Below are positions 3,588 to 39,987 of a stretch of DNA of 41,847 nt, in pieces. Position 1 is the first letter of the stretch; every line of letters begins with the position of its first letter. This DNA is from a virus: IMG/VR virus record IMGVR_UViG_3300035670_000489, positions 1 to 41,847 of that record; one strand, given 5' to 3'. The translations under genes were made by a program, and so were the position numbers. The notes below the pieces were generated by a model. That model was not told the DNA's origin, did no database searches, and worked only from the letters and a program-made list of their open reading frames with translations.

Positions 3588-4135
3588 CAGACAAACAACT
3601 AAAAGACAAAGCCATAGATATTAAAGGCAAACAATATGTATTAGTATCCGACAGGATTAATTATTTTAACGATAATTATCCAAATGGATCAATTACTACT
3701 AATTTAATTTCTGATACTAATAGCACTTATGTAATGAAAGCAATCGTTATCCCAGATGTTGAAAAATCACTTAGACACTTTACCGGTTATTCTCAAGCTA
3801 AAATAGGTCAAGGAATGGTAAACACTACCGCAGCACTTGAAAATTGTGAAACTTCCGCAGTTGGCCGGGCTTTAGCAATGATGGGAATTGGTGTTATTGA
3901 TAGTGTAGCAAGTGTAGATGAGATTAAAAAAGCAGACTTTTCAATGGCAAAATCACCAGATCACCAAGACAATGAATTTAAAGACTCAAAATGTCAAAAA
4001 TGTGGTGGAAGAATAGCAATCAGCCAAGGTGGTAAACCATATTGTATAAATAGATGCTGGTTGCCGGAAAATAAACATTTTCAAGATGAGTTTAATAAAA
4101 CAGTAAAAGAAGGACTTACTTATGTCAAAGAATGA
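3584..4135 (+). CDS. Probable ssDNA-annealing/recombination protein with C-terminal zinc ribbon
   Basis: The 183-residue product holds the segment ENCETSAVGRALAMMGIG (about residues 86-103), flanked by FTGYSQAKIGQGMVNTT and by an ID..ASVDEI tail. This pattern is conserved in a widespread phage protein usually placed with the Rad52-like/Sak3-type single-strand annealing proteins. A C-terminal zinc ribbon follows (CQKCGG...YCINRC). Annealing ssDNA would suit replication or recombination in a phage without its own polymerase. GGAG precedes the start. The functional assignment is from motif resemblance, not from catalytic residues. Confidence 0.6.
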   Translation: MTDKQLKDKAIDIKGKQYVLVSDRINYFNDNYPNGSITTNLISDTNSTYVMKAIVIPDVEKSLRHFTGYSQAKIGQGMVNTTAALENCETSAVGRALAMMGIGVIDSVASVDEIKKADFSMAKSPDHQDNEFKDSKCQKCGGRIAISQGGKPYCINRCWLPENKHFQDEFNKTVKEGLTYVKE

Positions 4136-6276: not shown

Positions 6277-6281
6277 CTAAT

Positions 6282-6572
6282 ATGCCAAAAACCATTAAAC
6301 CAACTATGAAACAACAATATGTTTTAATCCATTGGAGAGATGCTACTATGAACGACCATAATCAATGTAGTCGTAGAGAAGCAGAAAATGAGTATAGTTT
6401 GATTGATGGATTAGTGGCTGGATTTTTGGTTAAAGAGGATAAAGAAAAAGTTATTGTTGCTCTTGATTGGTTTCCAAAAGATGACCAATTTAGGCAGATA
6501 GCCGTCTATCCAAAATCAGGAATTACTAGCATTGAAAAATTTACACTAAAGGAAACCAACTATGAAAACTAA
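6282..6572 (+). CDS. Small phage beta-barrel-like protein
   Basis: The 96 residues follow the pattern VLIHWRDA..., then GLVAGFLVKEDKEKVIVALDWF, then IAVYPKSGITSIEKF. This is the layout of a short beta-rich protein seen in many phage early regions (W.DA, vGwlv..d...i.la, iP...I..I). Function unknown. It is a distant-pattern match only. It overlaps the next gene by 11 bases. Confidence 0.6.
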   Translation: MPKTIKPTMKQQYVLIHWRDATMNDHNQCSRREAENEYSLIDGLVAGFLVKEDKEKVIVALDWFPKDDQFRQIAVYPKSGITSIEKFTLKETNYEN

Positions 6573-7635: not shown

Positions 7636-7884
7636 GTGGAAGATAATCTTAGCAACATCCAACGCCAAGTGCTAATAATAGTTGATAAATGGGTGCGTTC
7701 TAAGAAAACTCCTGTCCCACGAAATCATATAATAGATGAAATGACTAAGAATGGTGTTGAAAGCTATACCACCATCTTTAGTTTAAACTCTGTAATGAGT
7801 AAAGGGTATATAAGAAGAGCAATTACCCAGTGTGAGAGAAACAAAACATTATATGTTCAATTAAGAACTATACATTATGACTGA
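7636..7884 (+). CDS. Winged-helix-like small protein preceding the terminase
   Basis: The 82-residue product starts with GTG. The N-terminal half (LSNIQRQVLIIVDKWVRSKKTPVPRNHII) and the SYTTIFSLNSVMSKGYIRRA segment read like a winged-helix DNA-binding domain: helix, helix, recognition helix, strand pair. It is driven by its own leaderless promoter and overlaps TerS by eight bases. It may regulate late genes or assist packaging; neither is shown. Confidence 0.55.
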   Translation: MEDNLSNIQRQVLIIVDKWVRSKKTPVPRNHIIDEMTKNGVESYTTIFSLNSVMSKGYIRRAITQCERNKTLYVQLRTIHYD

Positions 7885-15649: not shown

Positions 15650-16633
15650 ATGGCAACTTTTGAATTAAAACAAAATCTACCAACATCTACTCAAAACGAG
15701 ATAGATAGAATTGAAGCAATCGCTGAAGCCAATAGAACGGCCCAAGAAGTTGCTTTTTTATCAGCTAGAACTCCATATAGAACAAATAGAGTTCTTCGTT
15801 ACAATAATTCCCTAACTTCTACTCCAGCAAGTTCAAGTGATACTATCCTTGAAGCTGAAGGTAATACATTACCAACTGGATATAGTGGTTTTAAAGTCGG
15901 TGCAATCTTTAGAGATTTAGATAAAACAGGTATGGTTATGTATGTAAATACAGGAACTACTACCAGTGCTGTTTGGACTCAAATAAATGGAAATATATTA
16001 GTATCTTCTTCCGCATCTCTTAGCCCATCTGCTAGTGCTTCACCAAGTGCTTCTACTTCTCCATCTAGTTCAGCTTCACTATCTCCAAGTGCTTCTGCTA
16101 GTCCATCTAGTTCGGTTAGCCCAAGTCCTAGTGCATCTGAATCAAGAAGTCCGTCTGTTTCTGAATCCAGATCTCCATCTGTCTCTGCTTCCAGCTCTGA
16201 ATCAAGAAGTCCTAGTGCCTCTGAATCTCCAAGCTCTAGTGTTTCACTGTCTCCAAGTGTTAGCCCATCTGCTAGTGTTTCCCTTAGTCCAAGTGCTTCG
16301 GCTTCACCAAGTTCTAGTGAATCTGTTTCACCTTCTGCAAGTGCTTCACCAAGCTCTAGTGTTAGTTTGTCTCCATCTAGCTCGGCTTCTGCTTCACCAT
16401 CTACTACACCAAGTGCTTCTGAAAGCTGGTCTCCTAGCTCATCTGCTTCGGCTAGTTACTCACCATCTGGTTCAGTTAGTGCTTCTGTTAGTCTTAGCCC
16501 ATCCGTTTCTGAATCTAGATCTCCATCTTCTAGTTCTAGTCCATCGGCTTCTACAAGTCCTTCTAGTTCTACAAGCCCATCTAGTTCGGCTAGTTCGTCT
16601 AACAGCCCATCACCTAGCTTCCCAGATCTATAA
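15650..16633 (+). CDS. Virion-associated protein with a long Ser-Pro-Ser (mucin-like) tail
   Basis: The 327 residues divide into an N-terminal folded part (about 1-118, ending [23 protein letters not shown]...VWTQI) and a C-terminal low-complexity tract of about 200 residues made of Ser, Pro, Ala, Val, Glu, Thr ([13 protein letters not shown] style). All six Ser codons are used in mixture, so the repeat is kept at protein rather than DNA level. The N-terminus likely attaches to the capsid or tail and the tail extends outward. Serine-rich tracts of this type are O-glycosylation substrates in other systems. A glycosyltransferase gene follows directly. Confidence 0.8.
16004..16618 (+). repeat. 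Ser-Pro-Ser coding low-complexity tract 1
   Basis: Imperfect 6-base units encoding Ser/Pro/Ala tracts. Long open frames in the other phases here (for example a Leu/His/Val-rich one) are by-products of the repeat. Confidence 0.9.
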
Positions 16634-18257: not shown

Positions 18258-18747
18258 TGTATTAAGTGGTTCTCATTTGCCTCTATTAATTAAACTTGTT
18301 AATTCAACTCCCGGACCAATACTTGAAATGGGAATGGGTTTAAATAGTACCCCGGTTTTACATTGGTTGTGTACCCATCAAAAGAGACAATTATTATCTC
18401 TTGAAAATGACGAGAAGTGGTTTGATTATGACAAGTATTACGAAAATGAATATCATCACATAGAATTGGTGAAAGATTGGGACAAAGTGGATATTTTTAG
18501 CAGATATTGGTCAATAGTGCTAATAGACCACAGACCAGCCTTGAGAAGAAGAATTGACGCTGTTAGATTAAAAGATCAAGCTGATTATATCCTTCTCCAC
18601 GATGCAGAACCGGAAATAAAAAGATTTTACGGATATCAGAGGATATTAAAGCATTTTTCTTATAACTATTTGTTTAAAGATTTAAAACCTAACACTTTGG
18701 TTTTAAGTAATACTAGGAGTTTAAAACACCTATTGACTTCAATATAA
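18244..18747 (+). CDS. Class I methyltransferase-like protein
   Basis: The 167 residues contain ILEMGMGLNSTPVLHW (a motif-I-like Gly-rich loop), LLSLENDEKWFDY (acidic residue after strand 2, binding the SAM ribose) and a late strand (YILLHDAEPEIKRFYG). This fits a small Rossmann methyltransferase, though the GxGxG loop is imperfect. In a glycan cassette it could cap sugars by O-methylation. Alternatively it may be a nucleotide-binding protein of another type. Confidence 0.6.
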   Translation: MSTTDVLSGSHLPLLIKLVNSTPGPILEMGMGLNSTPVLHWLCTHQKRQLLSLENDEKWFDYDKYYENEYHHIELVKDWDKVDIFSRYWSIVLIDHRPALRRRIDAVRLKDQADYILLHDAEPEIKRFYGYQRILKHFSYNYLFKDLKPNTLVLSNTRSLKHLLTSI

Positions 18748-22907: not shown

Positions 22908-22913
22908 TTGAGT

Positions 22914-25778
22914 ATGGCTAGTTATCTCAAACTTGATGGTTCAACTTATATATATATTCTTCAGGAAAACGGGGATAAAATTTTACTGGAAGAGGTCTCA
23001 TCAGAATCGCTATCAATTTCTTTAAGTCCTTCGGCTTCTCAAAGTCCGAGTAGTTCAATATCATTGTCTCCGTCTCTCTCTCCAAGTGTCAGTGAGTCAG
23101 TCAGTGAGTCCGCTAGTATTTCATTATCACCTTCTGCAAGTATTAGTTTAAGTCCAAGTGCATCAGAATCTCTATCAGAATCAGTATCAGAGAGCGCATC
23201 GGAGAGTGTTTCGGAATCATTGTCGGAGTCTTCAAGCCAATCACCTTCCAGTTCCGAATCAATTAGTGAATCAGCCTCTATAAGCTTATCCCCATCGGCA
23301 AGTGAAAGTTTGTCTATTTCGCTATCTCCTTCTGTTAGTGTATCTGCTTCGGAATCACCCTCATCATCTACTTCATTTTCACCATCCGCAAGTGAGTCAT
23401 TATCCGAATCCGTTTCTGAATCATTATCACCTTCCTTGAGTGAAAGTCTTTCTCCTAGTGCATCTCAAAGCCCAAGTTCTTCGGAATCTGTTAGTGAAAG
23501 TGCTAGCGAGTCTTTAAGTGAATCCGTGTCAGAATCCTTATCTCCATCTTTAAGTCTTTCTTTAAGTCCATCTGCAAGTCAAAGTCCTTCTAGTTCTGAA
23601 AGTGTTTCAGAATCTGCTTCAATTTCTCTTTCTCCTTCGGTAAGCGAATCTTTATCTATATCACTAAGTCCATCTGTTAGTGAGAGTGCGAGTGAAAGTC
23701 CAAGTAGTTCAATTTCACTTTCTCCAAGTCTTTCACCTTCCGTATCAGAATCAGTTTCTGAATCTTTGAGTGAATCTGTATCAGAATCGTTATCTCCATC
23801 TGCATCGCAATCTCCAAGTAGTTCGGAAAGCTTATCAATTAGTTTGTCTCCTAGTTTATCCATTAGTTTAAGCCCTTCAGTATCAGTTTCGGCTTCCGAA
23901 TCACCTTCCTCTTCAGAAAGTTTGAGTCCTAGCTTATCAGAGTCTTTATCAGAAAGTGTTTCCGAATCGGCATCAATTTCATTATCGCCATCTTCTAGTA
24001 TATCCGCTTCGGAATCTCCATCTAGTTCTATCTCGTTAAGTCCATCTCTAAGCGAATCGGTTAGTGAAAGTTTAAGTGAATCTGTTTCAGTTTCAGCATC
24101 AGAGAGCCCGTCTAGTTCTGAATCTTTATCTCCAAGCGTATCAGAAAGTGTCAGCGAATCTTTGAGTATTAGTTTAAGTCCATCTGTATCTGAATCCGCT
24201 TCTATTTCTCTTTCTCCTAGCTCATCTCCCAGTCCAAGTGTTGGATCAGAATCCGCTAGTATTTCATTATCCGAATCCCTTTCTCCTAGTGTTAGTGAAA
24301 GTGCATCTCCATCGGCAAGTGAATCTCCTAGTTCAAGTGAGAGTTTGAGTCCGTCAGTATCTGAATCAGTATCAGAAAGTTTATCTCCCTCTTTAAGTCC
24401 TTCGGCCTCAATCTCTTTATCAGAATCTATTTCCGAATCTGTTAGTGAATCAGTTAGTGAATCCTTGTCTCCAAGTGTATCTGAATCGGTTTCGGAATCA
24501 TTATCCGAGTCTTTATCTCCTAGTTTATCTGAATCACTATCATTAAGTTTAAGTCCTAGTCTATCTGAATCATTATCAGAGTCTTTAAGCGAATCAATAT
24601 CAGAAAGTGCTTCTGTAAGTCCTAGTAGTTCTATTTCTGCTAGTCAATCTCCAAGTGCTAGTGAATCCGTGTCAGAAAGTTTATCTATTTCTCTAAGTCC
24701 TTCGGCCTCAATCTCTTTATCACCAAGTGTTAGCGAATCTCTATCAGAATCCGTTAGTATTAGTGCTTCAGTTAGCCCAAGTTCTTCAATAAGTGCCTCT
24801 ATTAGTCCGTCTCAAGCTGCTGGATCAGGATTATTCTCAAAAGAAGTTACTTTATATCTGCCGAACAATAACAATAATTTAGCCATTCTTTATGGTGAAG
24901 ATGATGAAATAGCCGTTAGCGAAGATGATGGTATAAGAGTTGGATTGATATATACTGATACATACAGTTCTAGTCCTAGTATTTCAGTATCCTCGTCTCC
25001 GTCTTTATCTGTCAGTCCTTCTTTATCAGAATCTGTCTCTCCTTCTAGTTCAGCATCTCCTAGTATAGAAGTAGGTAATTGTTTGCTTCAAGAAAACGGA
25101 GATGAATTACTACAAGAGATAGGTGATTGTATTTTATTAGAATCAGGGTGGGTGGAAAGTGCTTCTCCGTCTTTGTCTCCGTCATCTTCTCCAAGTCTTT
25201 CACAAAGTCCATCATCTAGTATTTCATTATCTCCTAGCCCTTCTAATGGATATGAGTACAATTTAGTCCATCAATATAGAGTAGAAAATAATACTGACAA
25301 AGATTCAATTAAATTACTTGTCAATTTACAATCTTCTCTTACAACATCAAGCTCTCCTGTCTGTTTGCAAATTTGGAATAATACTATCGGAACTTGGGAA
25401 ACTTTAGATACTGAAAGTTCTGCCCTTGCCGATACTGATTTTAATTTAACTGGCGAGATAACTTCTAATGTAACTAATTACTACGATAATAATGAGATAG
25501 CATTTAGGGTTTATCAGGGTGCTATGGTTGATGGTCAATCTTTATCCGTTGATTGGGTTAGAACTTGCTTCATCATAGTTTATGAGGATAAATACGCTAG
25601 TAAAACTACAACTTATGGAAATAAATACAGTGATTTGACAACCAGTTATTCTAGTAAGTACAAATCCAAGACTACTACTTATGGTGATAAATTTGCTGAT
25701 AAAACTACTAATTATTCAGATAAATTCTCTGATAAAACTACTACTTATGAAGATAAGTATAGAAAAAAACATTGTTAA
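22914..25778 (+). CDS. Giant Ser-Pro-Ser repeat (mucin-like) protein, 954 residues
   Basis: I start at the ATG at 22914 (TTG at 22908 would overlap the promoter spacing). A 28-residue head (YIYILQENGDKILLEE) is followed by about 600 residues of Ser/Pro/Glu/Val/Leu/Ile repeat (SESLSISLSPSASQSPSSS). A short folded module follows (GLFSKEVTLYLPNNNNNLAI), more SPS, a second LLQENGDELLQEIGD motif like the head, another SPS run, then a beta-rich domain (YNLVHQYRVENNTDKDSIKLLV). The C-terminus carries 11-residue YxxKxxxKTTT repeats. It looks like a long flexible virion fibre. Tract 2 has far more Glu than tract 1. Candidate substrate of the flanking glycosyltransferases. Confidence 0.8.
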   Translation: MASYLKLDGSTYIYILQENGDKILLEEVSSESLSISLSPSASQSPSSSISLSPSLSPSVSESVSESASISLSPSASISLSPSASESLSESVSESASESVSESLSESSSQSPSSSESISESASISLSPSASESLSISLSPSVSVSASESPSSSTSFSPSASESLSESVSESLSPSLSESLSPSASQSPSSSESVSESASESLSESVSESLSPSLSLSLSPSASQSPSSSESVSESASISLSPSVSESLSISLSPSVSESASESPSSSISLSPSLSPSVSESVSESLSESVSESLSPSASQSPSSSESLSISLSPSLSISLSPSVSVSASESPSSSESLSPSLSESLSESVSESASISLSPSSSISASESPSSSISLSPSLSESVSESLSESVSVSASESPSSSESLSPSVSESVSESLSISLSPSVSESASISLSPSSSPSPSVGSESASISLSESLSPSVSESASPSASESPSSSESLSPSVSESVSESLSPSLSPSASISLSESISESVSESVSESLSPSVSESVSESLSESLSPSLSESLSLSLSPSLSESLSESLSESISESASVSPSSSISASQSPSASESVSESLSISLSPSASISLSPSVSESLSESVSISASVSPSSSISASISPSQAAGSGLFSKEVTLYLPNNNNNLAILYGEDDEIAVSEDDGIRVGLIYTDTYSSSPSISVSSSPSLSVSPSLSESVSPSSSASPSIEVGNCLLQENGDELLQEIGDCILLESGWVESASPSLSPSSSPSLSQSPSSSISLSPSPSNGYEYNLVHQYRVENNTDKDSIKLLVNLQSSLTTSSSPVCLQIWNNTIGTWETLDTESSALADTDFNLTGEITSNVTNYYDNNEIAFRVYQGAMVDGQSLSVDWVRTCFIIVYEDKYASKTTTYGNKYSDLTTSYSSKYKSKTTTYGDKFADKTTNYSDKFSDKTTTYEDKYRKKHC
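22998..24812 (+). repeat. Ser-Pro-Ser/Glu coding low-complexity tract 2
   Basis: About 1.8 kb of imperfect 6-base units encoding (S-x)n with SPS, SES, SAS, SLS and SIS steps. Ser codons TCN and AGY alternate freely, so exact DNA repeats are short. Copy number is likely to differ between related phages. Confidence 0.9.
25587..25770 (+). repeat. 11-residue tandem repeats at the C-terminus
   Basis: About six units of the form K-Y/F-x-x-K-T-T-T-Y-x-D (for example KYASKTTTYGN, KFADKTTNYSD). Regular Tyr/Phe and Thr positions suggest a beta-solenoid or fibrous stack rather than a coil. The unit identity is visible at both protein and DNA level. Confidence 0.8.
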
Positions 25779-30278: not shown

Positions 30279-31523
30279 ATGGCATCAAACTTATACGAAT
30301 ACTATCAATCAATAGGACAAAACTTACCCTCTATACAAGAGAGAGCTAAAATATTTGAAACAAGCGGATTAGGTTCTGCAACTGGTTATATGGGTACTGC
30401 TTCTCAAAATGCTGCATTATTGGCTAAATTAGCCAGTGGTGGTTCAGTAATGCCTCAAGCAACTCCACAAACAGTTGCTCAAACTACTCCGCAAACTACT
30501 CAACAGGTTACAACTCAACCAACGGCACAAACTGGTGGATATGACATAAATGCAATTGTAAATGCTATGCTACAAAAAGGTTATAACAATAGAGCTGAAG
30601 CAGAAGCAGTAGCAAAGGGTGATCCAGAAAGATTTGCTAGAGAATATCTTGGTGTTGGTGGTACAACTGGTGCAACTGGTGCAACTATTACACAACAACC
30701 TACAATAGATTTAACCAGTATTTATGATAATTTAACTAATAAAGCTGGTATAAATGATTTACAAAATCAATTAGTTCAAAGAGAACAGGCTTATAATCTC
30801 GCTGTTAGTAAAATTAACGACAATCCTTATTTATCTGAAGCTACTAGAGTTGGTCGTATTCAAAAACTAACTACTGATTATCAAAACTCTGTTAAACCAC
30901 TTCAAGCTCAAATAGAAATGGCTACAAGTGATGTTAAAAATAGACTTGGAATGGCTACTCAACAATACGAGTATGGTGTTCAAGCTAGAGAAACTGCATT
31001 AAATCAATTTAATTCATTATTAAGTTCTGGTGCTTTGGTAGGTGCTGATGCTTCTACAATAGCACAACTCGCTGCTAGTACAGGTATAAGTTCTAGTATT
31101 ATTCAAAGTGCTATTACTGCTTCTGGTAAAAAAGATGTAAATATTCAAGTTATAAAATCTGAAGATGATAATGGAAATGTGGTGGTATCTGTTATAAATA
31201 CTGATACTGGTGATGTTATTAAACAAACAAGTTTAGGCCAAGTTGGTACTAAAACAAAAGTTCCTAGTGGTGGTGGAGTAACGCCAACAAAGGTATCAGA
31301 ACAACAATTTTTAGAAGAAGCTAAAACTGTTACAGGCCAACAAACAGATACTGGTTGGGTAGGACAATTCCCATTACTGGTTGCTAAATATGCACCATAC
31401 TTTACCTTATCAAAAATATATCAACTTTATTCACAGAGTGAATTAGGTCAAAAATATGGAAATCCGACGGAAGATGCAACAGAAATAAAAGAATTATATA
31501 ATTATTATCGTGGTAATGAATAA
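30279..31523 (+). CDS. Internal virion/ejection-type protein 1
   Basis: The 414 residues hold a Gln/Thr/Ala-rich linker (about 60-90), a helical part with RAEAEAVAKGDPERFAREYLG and a long helical coiled section (KINDNPYLSEATRVGRIQKLTTDYQ), and a beta C-terminus. This is the profile of ejection proteins in podoviruses that leave the capsid with the genome. It is the first of three in tandem. No enzyme motif. Stop overlaps next ATG (TAATG). Confidence 0.65.
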   Translation: MASNLYEYYQSIGQNLPSIQERAKIFETSGLGSATGYMGTASQNAALLAKLASGGSVMPQATPQTVAQTTPQTTQQVTTQPTAQTGGYDINAIVNAMLQKGYNNRAEAEAVAKGDPERFAREYLGVGGTTGATGATITQQPTIDLTSIYDNLTNKAGINDLQNQLVQREQAYNLAVSKINDNPYLSEATRVGRIQKLTTDYQNSVKPLQAQIEMATSDVKNRLGMATQQYEYGVQARETALNQFNSLLSSGALVGADASTIAQLAASTGISSSIIQSAITASGKKDVNIQVIKSEDDNGNVVVSVINTDTGDVIKQTSLGQVGTKTKVPSGGGVTPTKVSEQQFLEEAKTVTGQQTDTGWVGQFPLLVAKYAPYFTLSKIYQLYSQSELGQKYGNPTEDATEIKELYNYYRGNE

Positions 31524-37598: not shown

Positions 37599-37723
37599 CA
37601 ACTTTTCACCACAGAATAATGTGGAGTATTATAGCTTTAACTTTTATAATGTGTTGTCTTTTAGTTTATTTATTATTGACTGGTAATTATACTAGTCCTC
37701 TTTGTTTAGAAAAATGTTTATAA
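37595..37723 (+). CDS. 42-residue membrane protein in the lysis cassette
   Basis: ATG at 37595 overlaps the TGA of the XhlA-like gene. One hydrophobic helix (WSIIALTFIMCCLLVYLLLTG), then a short tail with two cysteines (CLEKC). It is coupled to both neighbours, and its end overlaps the endolysin start by ten bases. A spanin- or antiholin-like role is possible but unproved. Confidence 0.6.
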   Translation: MTTFHHRIMWSIIALTFIMCCLLVYLLLTGNYTSPLCLEKCL

Positions 37724-38556
37724 CTTATAAAGAGTTTTTAGATAAATATTTAGGACAATCAAAAGGTTATCCAGATGGTAGTTATATTGGTGAGTGTTTA
37801 TCAATAGTTAAACTTTATATTAAAGAGTGTTTTGGAATAAACCCGCCACCAAGTGGTAGTGGTAGTGCTTATGGCTATTGGTCTAATTTCCCTAGTCCTT
37901 TAGGCAATGTATTTGAAAAGGTTGAAAATACCGACACTTTAATACCCGAAAAAGGTTGGATTGCTGTTTGGGAACCTTGGTCTGCTAATCAATATGGACA
38001 TATTGCTATTGTGGCTGACGGTTGCACCACCTCAACTCTTAAAAACTATGCCCAAAACTGGACTTCTAAAACCTTTCAATTAGAGAGTAATAGATATACC
38101 AATGTTATTGGATTTTTAAAACCAAAAATTACCAATTCAGAAACTATTATGACAGAAGAACAAAAAAGAATATTAGATTTTTTAGCAGGTAAAACAGAGG
38201 GAGATGTTAGAGAAGCCTTTGGAGCATTAAATGATTCTCCAGAGAAAGACAAACAGATACAAACATTACAAGAAAAGGTTTTGAGTTTGGACAACTTTGT
38301 TAAGACCTTAGAAGATAGGATAGTTGCTTTAGAGAGTGATTTACAAGCCAATTTAGCTTTAGTAGAAGATTGGCAGAAGAAATATGAGAGTGCTAACAAA
38401 CTATTAAAAACTAAACAAGAAGAATTAGACGCTATGACTGCTTCTAAAAATCAGTATAAAGGCTGGTACGAAACTGCACTTACTAAGACTATTGATAAAT
38501 TTTCAGCTTGGGAATTAATTAATATGGGAATTAAAAAATTAATAGTTAAAAAATAA
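37714..38556 (+). CDS. CHAP/NlpC-type endolysin with coiled-coil C-terminus
   Basis: The start at ATG 37714 (MFITYKEFLDKYLG) is preferred over TTG 37702. The 280 residues have the CHAP-type order GECLSIVKLY (catalytic Cys28), QYGHIAIVAD (His96) and a late polar residue in NYAQNW. A hydrolysed bond in peptidoglycan (amidase or peptidase) is expected. Residues about 150-245 form a long charged coiled coil (DKQIQTLQEKVLSLDNF...DWQKKYESANKLL), unusual for endolysins, possibly for oligomerising. The C-terminus is basic. No signal peptide, so it needs the holin. Confidence 0.85.
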   Translation: MFITYKEFLDKYLGQSKGYPDGSYIGECLSIVKLYIKECFGINPPPSGSGSAYGYWSNFPSPLGNVFEKVENTDTLIPEKGWIAVWEPWSANQYGHIAIVADGCTTSTLKNYAQNWTSKTFQLESNRYTNVIGFLKPKITNSETIMTEEQKRILDFLAGKTEGDVREAFGALNDSPEKDKQIQTLQEKVLSLDNFVKTLEDRIVALESDLQANLALVEDWQKKYESANKLLKTKQEELDAMTASKNQYKGWYETALTKTIDKFSAWELINMGIKKLIVKK

Positions 38557-38557
38557 T

Positions 38558-38761
38558 ATGGTTTCAAAAAGATTCACATTAAACAAAGAAGAGCTTTTAA
38601 AAGTTGGGAAGAATGCTTTGATATTTTTAGCTCCAGCTTTAATAATTTTTCTTACTGCTATCCAAAGCGGAGTTTCTTTAAACGACTCTTTGTATGCTGT
38701 TTATCTGTGGGGATTAAATACTGCCATTGATTTGCTTCGTAAATTTAGCGAAGGCAAATAA
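38558..38761 (+). CDS. Holin (probable)
   Basis: The 67 residues have a basic N-terminus, one clear membrane helix (NALIFLAPALIIFLTAIQSG), a short turn and a second amphipathic or weak membrane segment (LYAVYLWGLNTAIDLL), then a basic end (RKFSEGK). The position after the endolysin and the two-helix topology fit a class II-type holin. It starts one base after the endolysin stop. Confidence 0.75.
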   Translation: MVSKRFTLNKEELLKVGKNALIFLAPALIIFLTAIQSGVSLNDSLYAVYLWGLNTAIDLLRKFSEGK

Positions 38762-38819
38762 AAAGACTGCTAATTGATTTATCGTTTCGTGGATAGATGT
38801 TAGCAGTCAGACTTAGTCT
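38757..38819 (-). ncRNA. Self-contained minus-strand small RNA with intrinsic terminator
   Basis: A consensus promoter (38826-38855) would start a transcript at about 38819. About 11 bases later comes a long hairpin: GACTGCTAA (38808-38800) pairs perfectly with TTAGCAGTC (38773-38765). Inside it is a second stem (ATCTATC/GATAAAT, one mismatch) and a CACGAAAC loop. A TTTTTATTT tract (38764-38756) follows directly. The RNA would be about 60 bases, contains no open frame, and no minus-strand gene lies downstream, so the RNA itself seems to be the product. The TTAGCAGTC arm is followed by an A/T-only stretch in the other direction, so it does not terminate plus-strand transcripts. Confidence 0.65.
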
Positions 38820-38825
38820 ATGCTA

Positions 38826-38855
38826 ATTATAGCTTAAACTATATCAAACTGTCAA
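38826..38855 (-). promoter_or_regulatory. Consensus sigma70 promoter of the small RNA
   Basis: On the minus strand, TTGACA (38855-38850), 18 bases, TATAAT (38831-38826): both hexamers perfect. The only transcribed feature before the terminator is the small RNA at 38757-38819. Confidence 0.8.
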
Positions 38856-38949: not shown

Positions 38950-38997
38950 ATGAGTTATATCAACTCTGAATTAATAATTAAAATATTGACCACCTAG
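38950..38997 (+). CDS. Possible 15-residue leader peptide ending in the terminator stem
   Basis: ATG at 38950, TAG at 38995-38997, peptide MSYINSELIIKILTT. Its last Thr-Thr codons form the 5' arm of the terminator hairpin at 38988-39015, so a ribosome at the stop would prevent the hairpin from folding. This geometry is that of a transcription attenuator. No ribosome-binding site is clear. Confidence 0.35.
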   Translation: MSYINSELIIKILTT

Positions 38998-39015
38998 ATT
39001 GGTGGTCTTTTTTTT
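38988..39015 (+). terminator. Rho-independent terminator before the right-hand operon
   Basis: GACCACC (38988-38994), loop TAGATT, GGTGGTC (39001-39007), then eight T (39008-39015). It ends the late transcript. The next gene's ATG follows the last T directly, with no promoter between, so the downstream genes depend on readthrough. Confidence 0.85.
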
Positions 39016-39987
39016 ATGAAAGAAAACAGCCCAGGTTTATATCTACCAGATGGTTCTTTCATATCAAAAGAGGAAATTCAAAGGAAACATCTCATGGAAG
39101 GCAAAGCCCAACTATTAACGGATATGCCCCTTGTCCGAGATTTTAAATATTGGGGTGAAAGATTTGAGCAAAGACAGGCTCAATATAAAGAAACCGAAAG
39201 TCGTTCTAACAAGATAGAAATATCTTTTGACCAAGAGCCTATTATTAATTTTATCGGCGACCTCCATGTTGGCTCTCCTGATGTTGACTATAAAAGAATA
39301 AATAATGAAATTGAGATAATTAGTCAAACTCCAAACTCTTATTTAATGGTTATGGGTGATACTGTTGACGGGTTTTTCTTTAATCCAGCCCAGTTTGAAC
39401 AGATAGAACAAGCACCAGAACAGTTTAGATATATTAATTCTATTTTTGAAAAAATGAGCAAAGAAGGAAAGCTATTAGTTGCTTGGGGTGGAGACCATTG
39501 TGGTTGGGCTAAAAAATCAGGAATTGACCCCTATGAAGAATTTAGTCAAAGGTTTAATGCTTATTACATGCAAGGAGTTGGGTATGTAAAATTAAAAGTT
39601 GGTGAAACTGATTACAACTTAATTGCGGCTCACAGATTACCTGGGTTTTCTATGTACAATAATGCTCATGCTGAAATGAGGCTTGGAAGAGAAGTACAAG
39701 GTGGGGATATTTATTTAGCTGCTCATAGCCACGCTAAAGGTTTTGTCCAACAAGAAGTACAGCAGTTTGGTGGGGAAAGTAAATTGGTTAGCTATATTAG
39801 TCTTGGTCCTTATAAAAGCCAAGATGATTATTCCAGAAAAAGAGGATTTGCACCAAAGACCGAAAAGGGAATGTATGGCAGTTGTATTAAACTTTATAAA
39901 GACCATAGACAAATTAAATATTACGATTCTATTTTGGAAGGGAATGGAAAGAGATTAACCAGAATAGAGAAAGGCTGGATATTATGA
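39016..39987 (+). CDS. Calcineurin-like metallophosphoesterase
   Basis: The 323 residues carry the five metal-binding blocks: IGDLHVGSP (Asp82, His84), MGDTVDGFF (Asp115), WGGDHCGW (Asp160-His161, where the usual N-H is D-H), AAHRLPG and AAHSHAKGF. This is the phage branch of the MPP superfamily, near the DNA-repair exonuclease group. It could cleave nucleotides or DNA. The N-terminus (MKENSPGLYLPDGSFISKEE) is typical for this phage family, supporting the ATG at 39016 although it abuts a terminator. It is the first of an overlapping run. Confidence 0.85.
   Translation: MKENSPGLYLPDGSFISKEEIQRKHLMEGKAQLLTDMPLVRDFKYWGERFEQRQAQYKETESRSNKIEISFDQEPIINFIGDLHVGSPDVDYKRINNEIEIISQTPNSYLMVMGDTVDGFFFNPAQFEQIEQAPEQFRYINSIFEKMSKEGKLLVAWGGDHCGWAKKSGIDPYEEFSQRFNAYYMQGVGYVKLKVGETDYNLIAAHRLPGFSMYNNAHAEMRLGREVQGGDIYLAAHSHAKGFVQQEVQQFGGESKLVSYISLGPYKSQDDYSRKRGFAPKTEKGMYGSCIKLYKDHRQIKYYDSILEGNGKRLTRIEKGWIL

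Follow-up and report, generated by a model that had tools for sequence, protein, structure and literature searches.

A conserved antisense small RNA, predicted behind the lysis genes of a probable Patescibacteria phage, with a CIRCE-type operator over its promoter

The 41,847-nt virus record IMGVR_UViG_3300035670_000489 (positions 1 to 41,847, the whole stretch of DNA that was analysed, hereafter the window) carries behind its putative lysis genes a predicted minus-strand small RNA, whose hairpin is conserved in structure in related phages and whose promoter is overlapped by an operator of the CIRCE type, the recognition site of the heat-shock repressor HrcA. We propose that the small RNA acts as a cis-antisense RNA, is repressed by the host HrcA through this operator, and lowers or times the expression of the lysis genes of a tailed phage that probably infects Patescibacteria; taken as a whole, we consider this proposal evenly balanced between right and wrong. 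The small RNA itself had been put forward in the original prediction. The CIRCE/HrcA-type operator and the phage-wide set to which it belongs had been missed there, and are the more informative part of the present analysis.

Predicted small RNA gene and its surroundings

The region displays the following features:
37702 to 38556, plus strand: endolysin (amidase-type PHROGs)
38558 to 38761, plus strand: 67-aa putative holin with one strongly hydrophobic segment, behind the endolysin
38826 to 38855, minus strand: sigma-70 promoter TTGACA-18-TATAAT (12 of 12 consensus matches)
38800 to 38826: CIRCE-like operator TTAGCA-N15-TGCTAA, an exact 27-bp inverted repeat overlapping the -10 box, the start site and the 5' stem arm
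38757 to 38819, minus strand: predicted small RNA of about 63 nt (sequence and fold)
38809 to 38819, minus strand: 4-bp 5' mini-hairpin AGAC-UAA-GUCU (sequence)
38765 to 38808, minus strand: 9-bp hairpin with an inner stem, then TTTTTATTT; intrinsic terminator and main RNA structure
38988 to 39014, plus strand: intrinsic terminator, separate from the small-RNA hairpin

The promoter is exceptional for the window, in which an exact TTGACA-N16-18-TATAAT is found a single time, versus 0.05 occurrences in shuffled sequences. The start of the RNA (about 38819) was placed from the promoter spacing, approximately 7 nt downstream, and its end (about 38757) from the T-run. The stem is comprised of the arms GACTGCTAA (38808-38800) and TTAGCAGTC (38773-38765), followed by the minus-strand T-run TTTTTATTT and the predicted end of the transcript. 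Both the whole small RNA (-15.1 kcal/mol, z -4.1) and the hairpin alone (-13.6 kcal/mol, z -6.4) fold better than shuffled sequences. An autonomous gene having its own promoter and terminator, and presumably transcribed from them, is well supported by these sequence features, and agrees with what had been predicted.

No coding sequence was found on the RNA; short plus-strand ORFs in the loop region (AGATG) were rejected as unrelated and unsuitably spaced. No Rfam family matched at its gathering score, a lax search returning chance matches only, which leaves the suggested mimicry of a host RNA unsupported, and nothing was found in favour of the suggested decoy for an RNA-guided defence. The exact small-RNA sequence had no match in viral contigs, and when the region was compared with phage records by blastn, nothing beyond short matches at chance level, in Enterococcus phages, was returned.

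The holin is named by its position behind the endolysin and by its hydrophobic segment, because the 67-aa protein matches no Pfam or PHROG family. Its stop codon is overlapped by the small RNA. The small-RNA hairpin is followed by no plus-strand T-run, and the terminator at 38988-39014, judged by its position, is probably where the late/lysis transcript ends. This transcript would therefore span the small-RNA locus completely, and the small RNA would over its full length be antisense to the 3' flank of the transcript. The T-run of this plus-strand terminator (39007-39018) leads directly into the ATG of a metallophosphatase ORF, and L034, one of the related phages described below, is arranged similarly, which makes another true start of this ORF, or an attenuation, conceivable. 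Elsewhere, the window encodes long Ser-Pro-rich repeat proteins (SASPSSS...; 15650-16633 and 22908-25778), and related contigs, G147 C15 among them, encode such proteins too.

Conservation of the hairpin in related phages

Conservation was scrutinized in five phages: the window, three relatives found by a search with the putative holin (L033, L034 and L035), and one TerL relative found by a profile (L019). In all five, the stop codon of the putative holin is immediately followed by an antisense terminator hairpin, which has a T-run on the minus strand only. Among the 256 gene ends of these genomes, such a terminator is thus present at 5 of 5 holin ends versus 3 of 251 other ORF ends (p ~6e-9). 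The stem sequence differs from phage to phage, 93% of the cells are paired, and seven of the nine pairs are changed on both sides. The covariation score of the five stems, which were set in register by hand according to their position beside the T-run since the loops do not align, was reached by none of 500 shuffles. Lack of structural conservation of the hairpin among relatives had been named beforehand as one result that would refute the original prediction; the prediction passed this test, as structure is kept and sequence is not. In all four relatives the predicted RNA is more stable than its shuffled versions (z -2.7 to -4.4); short 5' palindromes resembling AGAC-UAA-GUCU were seen by eye in L033, L034 and L035, and are absent from their minimum-energy folds. 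Judged by this comparison of sequences, the predicted small RNA is a conserved gene and not a chance terminator, a case far stronger than the one made by single-sequence statistics.

Three further contigs (L036, L037 and L043) encode distant holin-like proteins, but displayed no comparable element by eye, while L044, L045 and one G147 contig stop inside the holin gene. A search for relatives with the metallophosphatase downstream in the window returned none, the metallophosphatase of L033/L034 as query retrieved only these two and a truncated copy, and a holin profile search of genome contigs found nothing. In L034, a tRNA-like sequence was noticed by eye just past the small-RNA promoter (about 6315-6390, plus strand).

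The original prediction had left open whether the RNA regulates in antisense or in trans. C-rich loops are a common device for pairing with targets, and such loops are present in the window (CAUCUAUCCAC), L033 (CAUCUACCAC) and L035 (CAUCUCCCC), which have the loop piece CAUCU...CC in common. The small RNA could therefore be real and HrcA-controlled, yet act in trans on host or phage mRNAs, its loop pairing with ribosome-binding sites. This we consider unlikely: the loop piece of these three phages is not kept in L034 and L019, and the complementarity search against the phages, as originally proposed, gave pairings with start regions that fell on different genes in each phage and, in all but one of the five, did not exceed those of shuffled controls. 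One strong pairing was returned by this duplex-energy search, in G031 alone. With no consistent target in trans, cis-antisense action is the best of the roles originally suggested.

A phage-wide set of CIRCE-like operators

Besides the operator at the small-RNA promoter, the window contains:
7649 to 7675: second exact CIRCE-like site; an extended -10 promoter (TGATATAAT) lies about 20 bp upstream of it
18497 to 18523: third exact CIRCE-like site, inside an ORF
38370 to 38396: CIRCE-like site with one mismatch, close to where the endolysin gene ends and upstream of the putative holin

The extended -10 promoter precedes the terminase small subunit gene (7877), and the site at 7649-7675 lies within an unverified 82-aa ORF. 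The three exact copies of TTAGCA-N15-TGCTAA in the window compare with none in 100 shuffles; the exact core is also present at G031 3615-3641 and G032 31453-31479. When exact half-sites were counted in the window and three relatives, the N15 spacing occurred seven times (first-order null mean 0.023), N14 twice, and all other spacings from 0 to 60 together twice. With one mismatch allowed, N15 rose to 12 and N14 to six, each other spacing between 5 and 25 having zero to three.

Several sites are located on promoters. Three of the five phages (window, L033 and L034) have the operator over the antisense promoter, each at a different register. In L033 and L034 a CIRCE-like site covers the -35 region of a holin promoter with TATAAT, in L035 one lies immediately before the holin start, in G031 one covers an extended -10 ahead of the presumed terminase small subunit gene, and in G032 an N14 site covers an extended -10 ahead of a sugar-epimerase gene. 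A phage-wide set of CIRCE-like operators is, as a sequence pattern, well supported. HrcA control of the small RNA would not be universal, because the small-RNA promoters of L035 and L019, both weak, have no CIRCE over them. The promoter region of L035 (about 6278-6300, minus strand) contains another inverted repeat, ACCGCA-N6-TGCGGT, a possible repressor swap; none is obvious in L019.

The CIRCE-overlapped promoter of L033 and L034 precedes a longer start of the putative holin (L033 5941-6201, L034 5941-6198), whose in-frame N-terminal extension (MRRIKLNCLTDKTSYLLKIKI and MGKIKLYNLTNQTAYKLEIKT, respectively) is alike in both phages; this is possibly a dual-start holin.

Operator identity and probable host

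The CIRCE consensus, the binding site of HrcA, is TTAGCACTC-N9-GAGTGCTAA (PMC7464140). The phage pattern TTAGCA-N15-TGCTAA has its core and its spacing, and at several promoters it covers, as CIRCE does, the -35 box, the -10 box or the start of transcription. In their outer triplets the phage half-sites depart from CTC / GAG: TTAGCACTC was found once only, as one half in L033, the others being TTAGCAGTC, TTAGCAGTT and TTAGCATAG. Relaxed half-sites (TTAGCAGTC, TTAGCAGTT and TTAGCAGAT) also precede hrcA, dnaK or groES in several Patescibacteria genomes. The pattern is rare in bacterial genomes and marks heat-shock genes. It was found in 91 of 145 Patescibacteria genomes, in few copies per genome and, where checked, mostly before hrcA-grpE-dnaK or groESL (the former in a Woesebacteria MAG and one further MAG), including phage-like half-sites of the TTAGCAGT type. 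No hrcA was found in the phages, whereas it is present in seven of the seven Patescibacteria genomes tested. Based on its sequence, the operator looks like a site of the host HrcA, which would bind it.

The operator type, the TerL relatives and a related phage contig found in a Patescibacteria MAG together indicate that Patescibacteria are probably the host phylum. The TerL relatives occur in Woesebacteria and Saccharibacteria bins, among others, and because these bins are of mixed phyla, we can only infer this host.

The variation of the outer triplets would also fit an operator for a different repressor, encoded by the phage or by the host, that shares the 27-bp spacing; the phages do encode small helix-turn-helix proteins. 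The RNA would then be an ordinary phage-regulated antisense RNA. We consider this quite improbable, as the core and spacing are those of CIRCE, similarly relaxed variants precede the Patescibacteria heat-shock genes mentioned above, and no regulator common to the phages was identified.

Because five of the 12 operator-like sites fall within genes, a titration role is conceivable: the CIRCE-like copies on replicated phage DNA could draw off HrcA and so switch on the host chaperones for virion assembly, with the RNA as a by-product or of secondary importance. Exact in-gene copies that have no obvious promoter (at 18497, and at G032 7271) would fit. The other seven sites, however, lie outside ORFs, where only 14% of the positions are (p 4e-4), several of them overlap promoters, and the conserved stem of the RNA would be left unexplained, all of which makes a role limited to titration very unlikely.

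Perfect CIRCE sequences (TTAGCACTC-N9-GAGTGCTAA) were observed in 104 viral-contig stretches (L145-L224), a fair number of them just before groES or Hsp20-like genes (the latter recognized by eye), and HrcA-type control of phage chaperone genes may be widespread. Few candidates for a similar short RNA beside such a site were found (L153 and L194), and these were not convincing.

Proposed mechanism

In the titration model of HrcA control, GroE stimulates HrcA binding, which is lost once GroE is occupied (PMC8533110). An operator of the CIRCE class is derepressed by heat or when the chaperonin is overloaded. Applied to the phage, we infer transcription of the small RNA, its repression by HrcA, antisense cleavage and an effect on lysis in the following order. 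Early in infection the chaperonin would be free, HrcA active and the small RNA off. Once stress, or the late flood of phage structural proteins, has saturated the chaperonin, HrcA would become inactive and the small RNA would be made. Its pairing with the late/lysis mRNA would take place in the 3' flank of the latter, immediately past the putative holin stop codon, and would trigger cleavage of the mRNA, so that expression of the lysis genes is lowered or timed. Pairing would be slowed by the stable hairpins into which the small RNA and the late mRNA each fold. That the hairpin and T-run stand at the operon end, oriented against antisense transcription, could mean that the terminator merely shields the late operon and that the promoter arose by chance, which is very unlikely given that a perfect promoter only 17 bp upstream of the stem would itself create a transcript, and that the operator overlaps this promoter in three phages.

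Beyond HrcA-controlled antisense action of the small RNA, the operators on the putative holin and terminase promoters of relatives let the late genes as a whole appear tied to the folding state of the host. We tentatively extend the proposal, with more doubt than confidence, to a family of Patescibacteria phages in which packaging, lysis and an antisense RNA are wired into the HrcA circuit, and in which saturation of the chaperonin by virion proteins serves as the clock for late genes and lysis.

Comparison with known systems

The closest functional counterpart is the OOP RNA of phage lambda, an antisense RNA to the 3' side of cII whose promoter contains a LexA site and whose cleavage site is located beyond the coding sequence (PMC5869508). 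Similar to OOP, the predicted small RNA is a short promoter-to-terminator phage antisense RNA: by sequence it has its own promoter and terminator, measures less than 100 nt, and is complementary to the 3' side of the phage gene that it would regulate. Both promoters display a site for a host stress repressor, LexA for OOP and, as predicted here, HrcA. In OOP-type regulation the decay of the target mRNA depends on RNase III, which may hold for the late/lysis mRNA as well. In contrast, the two RNAs have no sequence relation, the target would be the late/lysis mRNA instead of cII, and the mechanism is proposed by likeness; the resemblance to OOP is one of functional analogy, not of descent. A functional likeness also exists to the short antisense RNAs of the sar type of phage P22.

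As in the regulons of CIRCE and HrcA (hrcA-grpE-dnaK and groESL), the core TTAGCA-N15-TGCTAA lies over promoter and start site. The known regulons consist of chaperones and a few other genes, whereas the phage sites are located on an RNA and on probable lysis and packaging genes, and have relaxed outer half-site triplets. A literature search for a phage RNA or late promoters tied to the protein-folding repressor found no report among the papers searched. The operator pattern can be tested in other viral genomes, and the circuit, if true, would offer a first look at how genes are controlled in phages whose host phylum has few cultured representatives. Phages tie decisions to the DNA-damage response of their host through LexA. 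The arrangement kept in the related phages suggests that a phage can read protein-folding stress of the host to tune its late genes, in which case phages would have, in the protein-folding repressor of the host, a second input for stress besides LexA, acting on a phage RNA and on late promoters.
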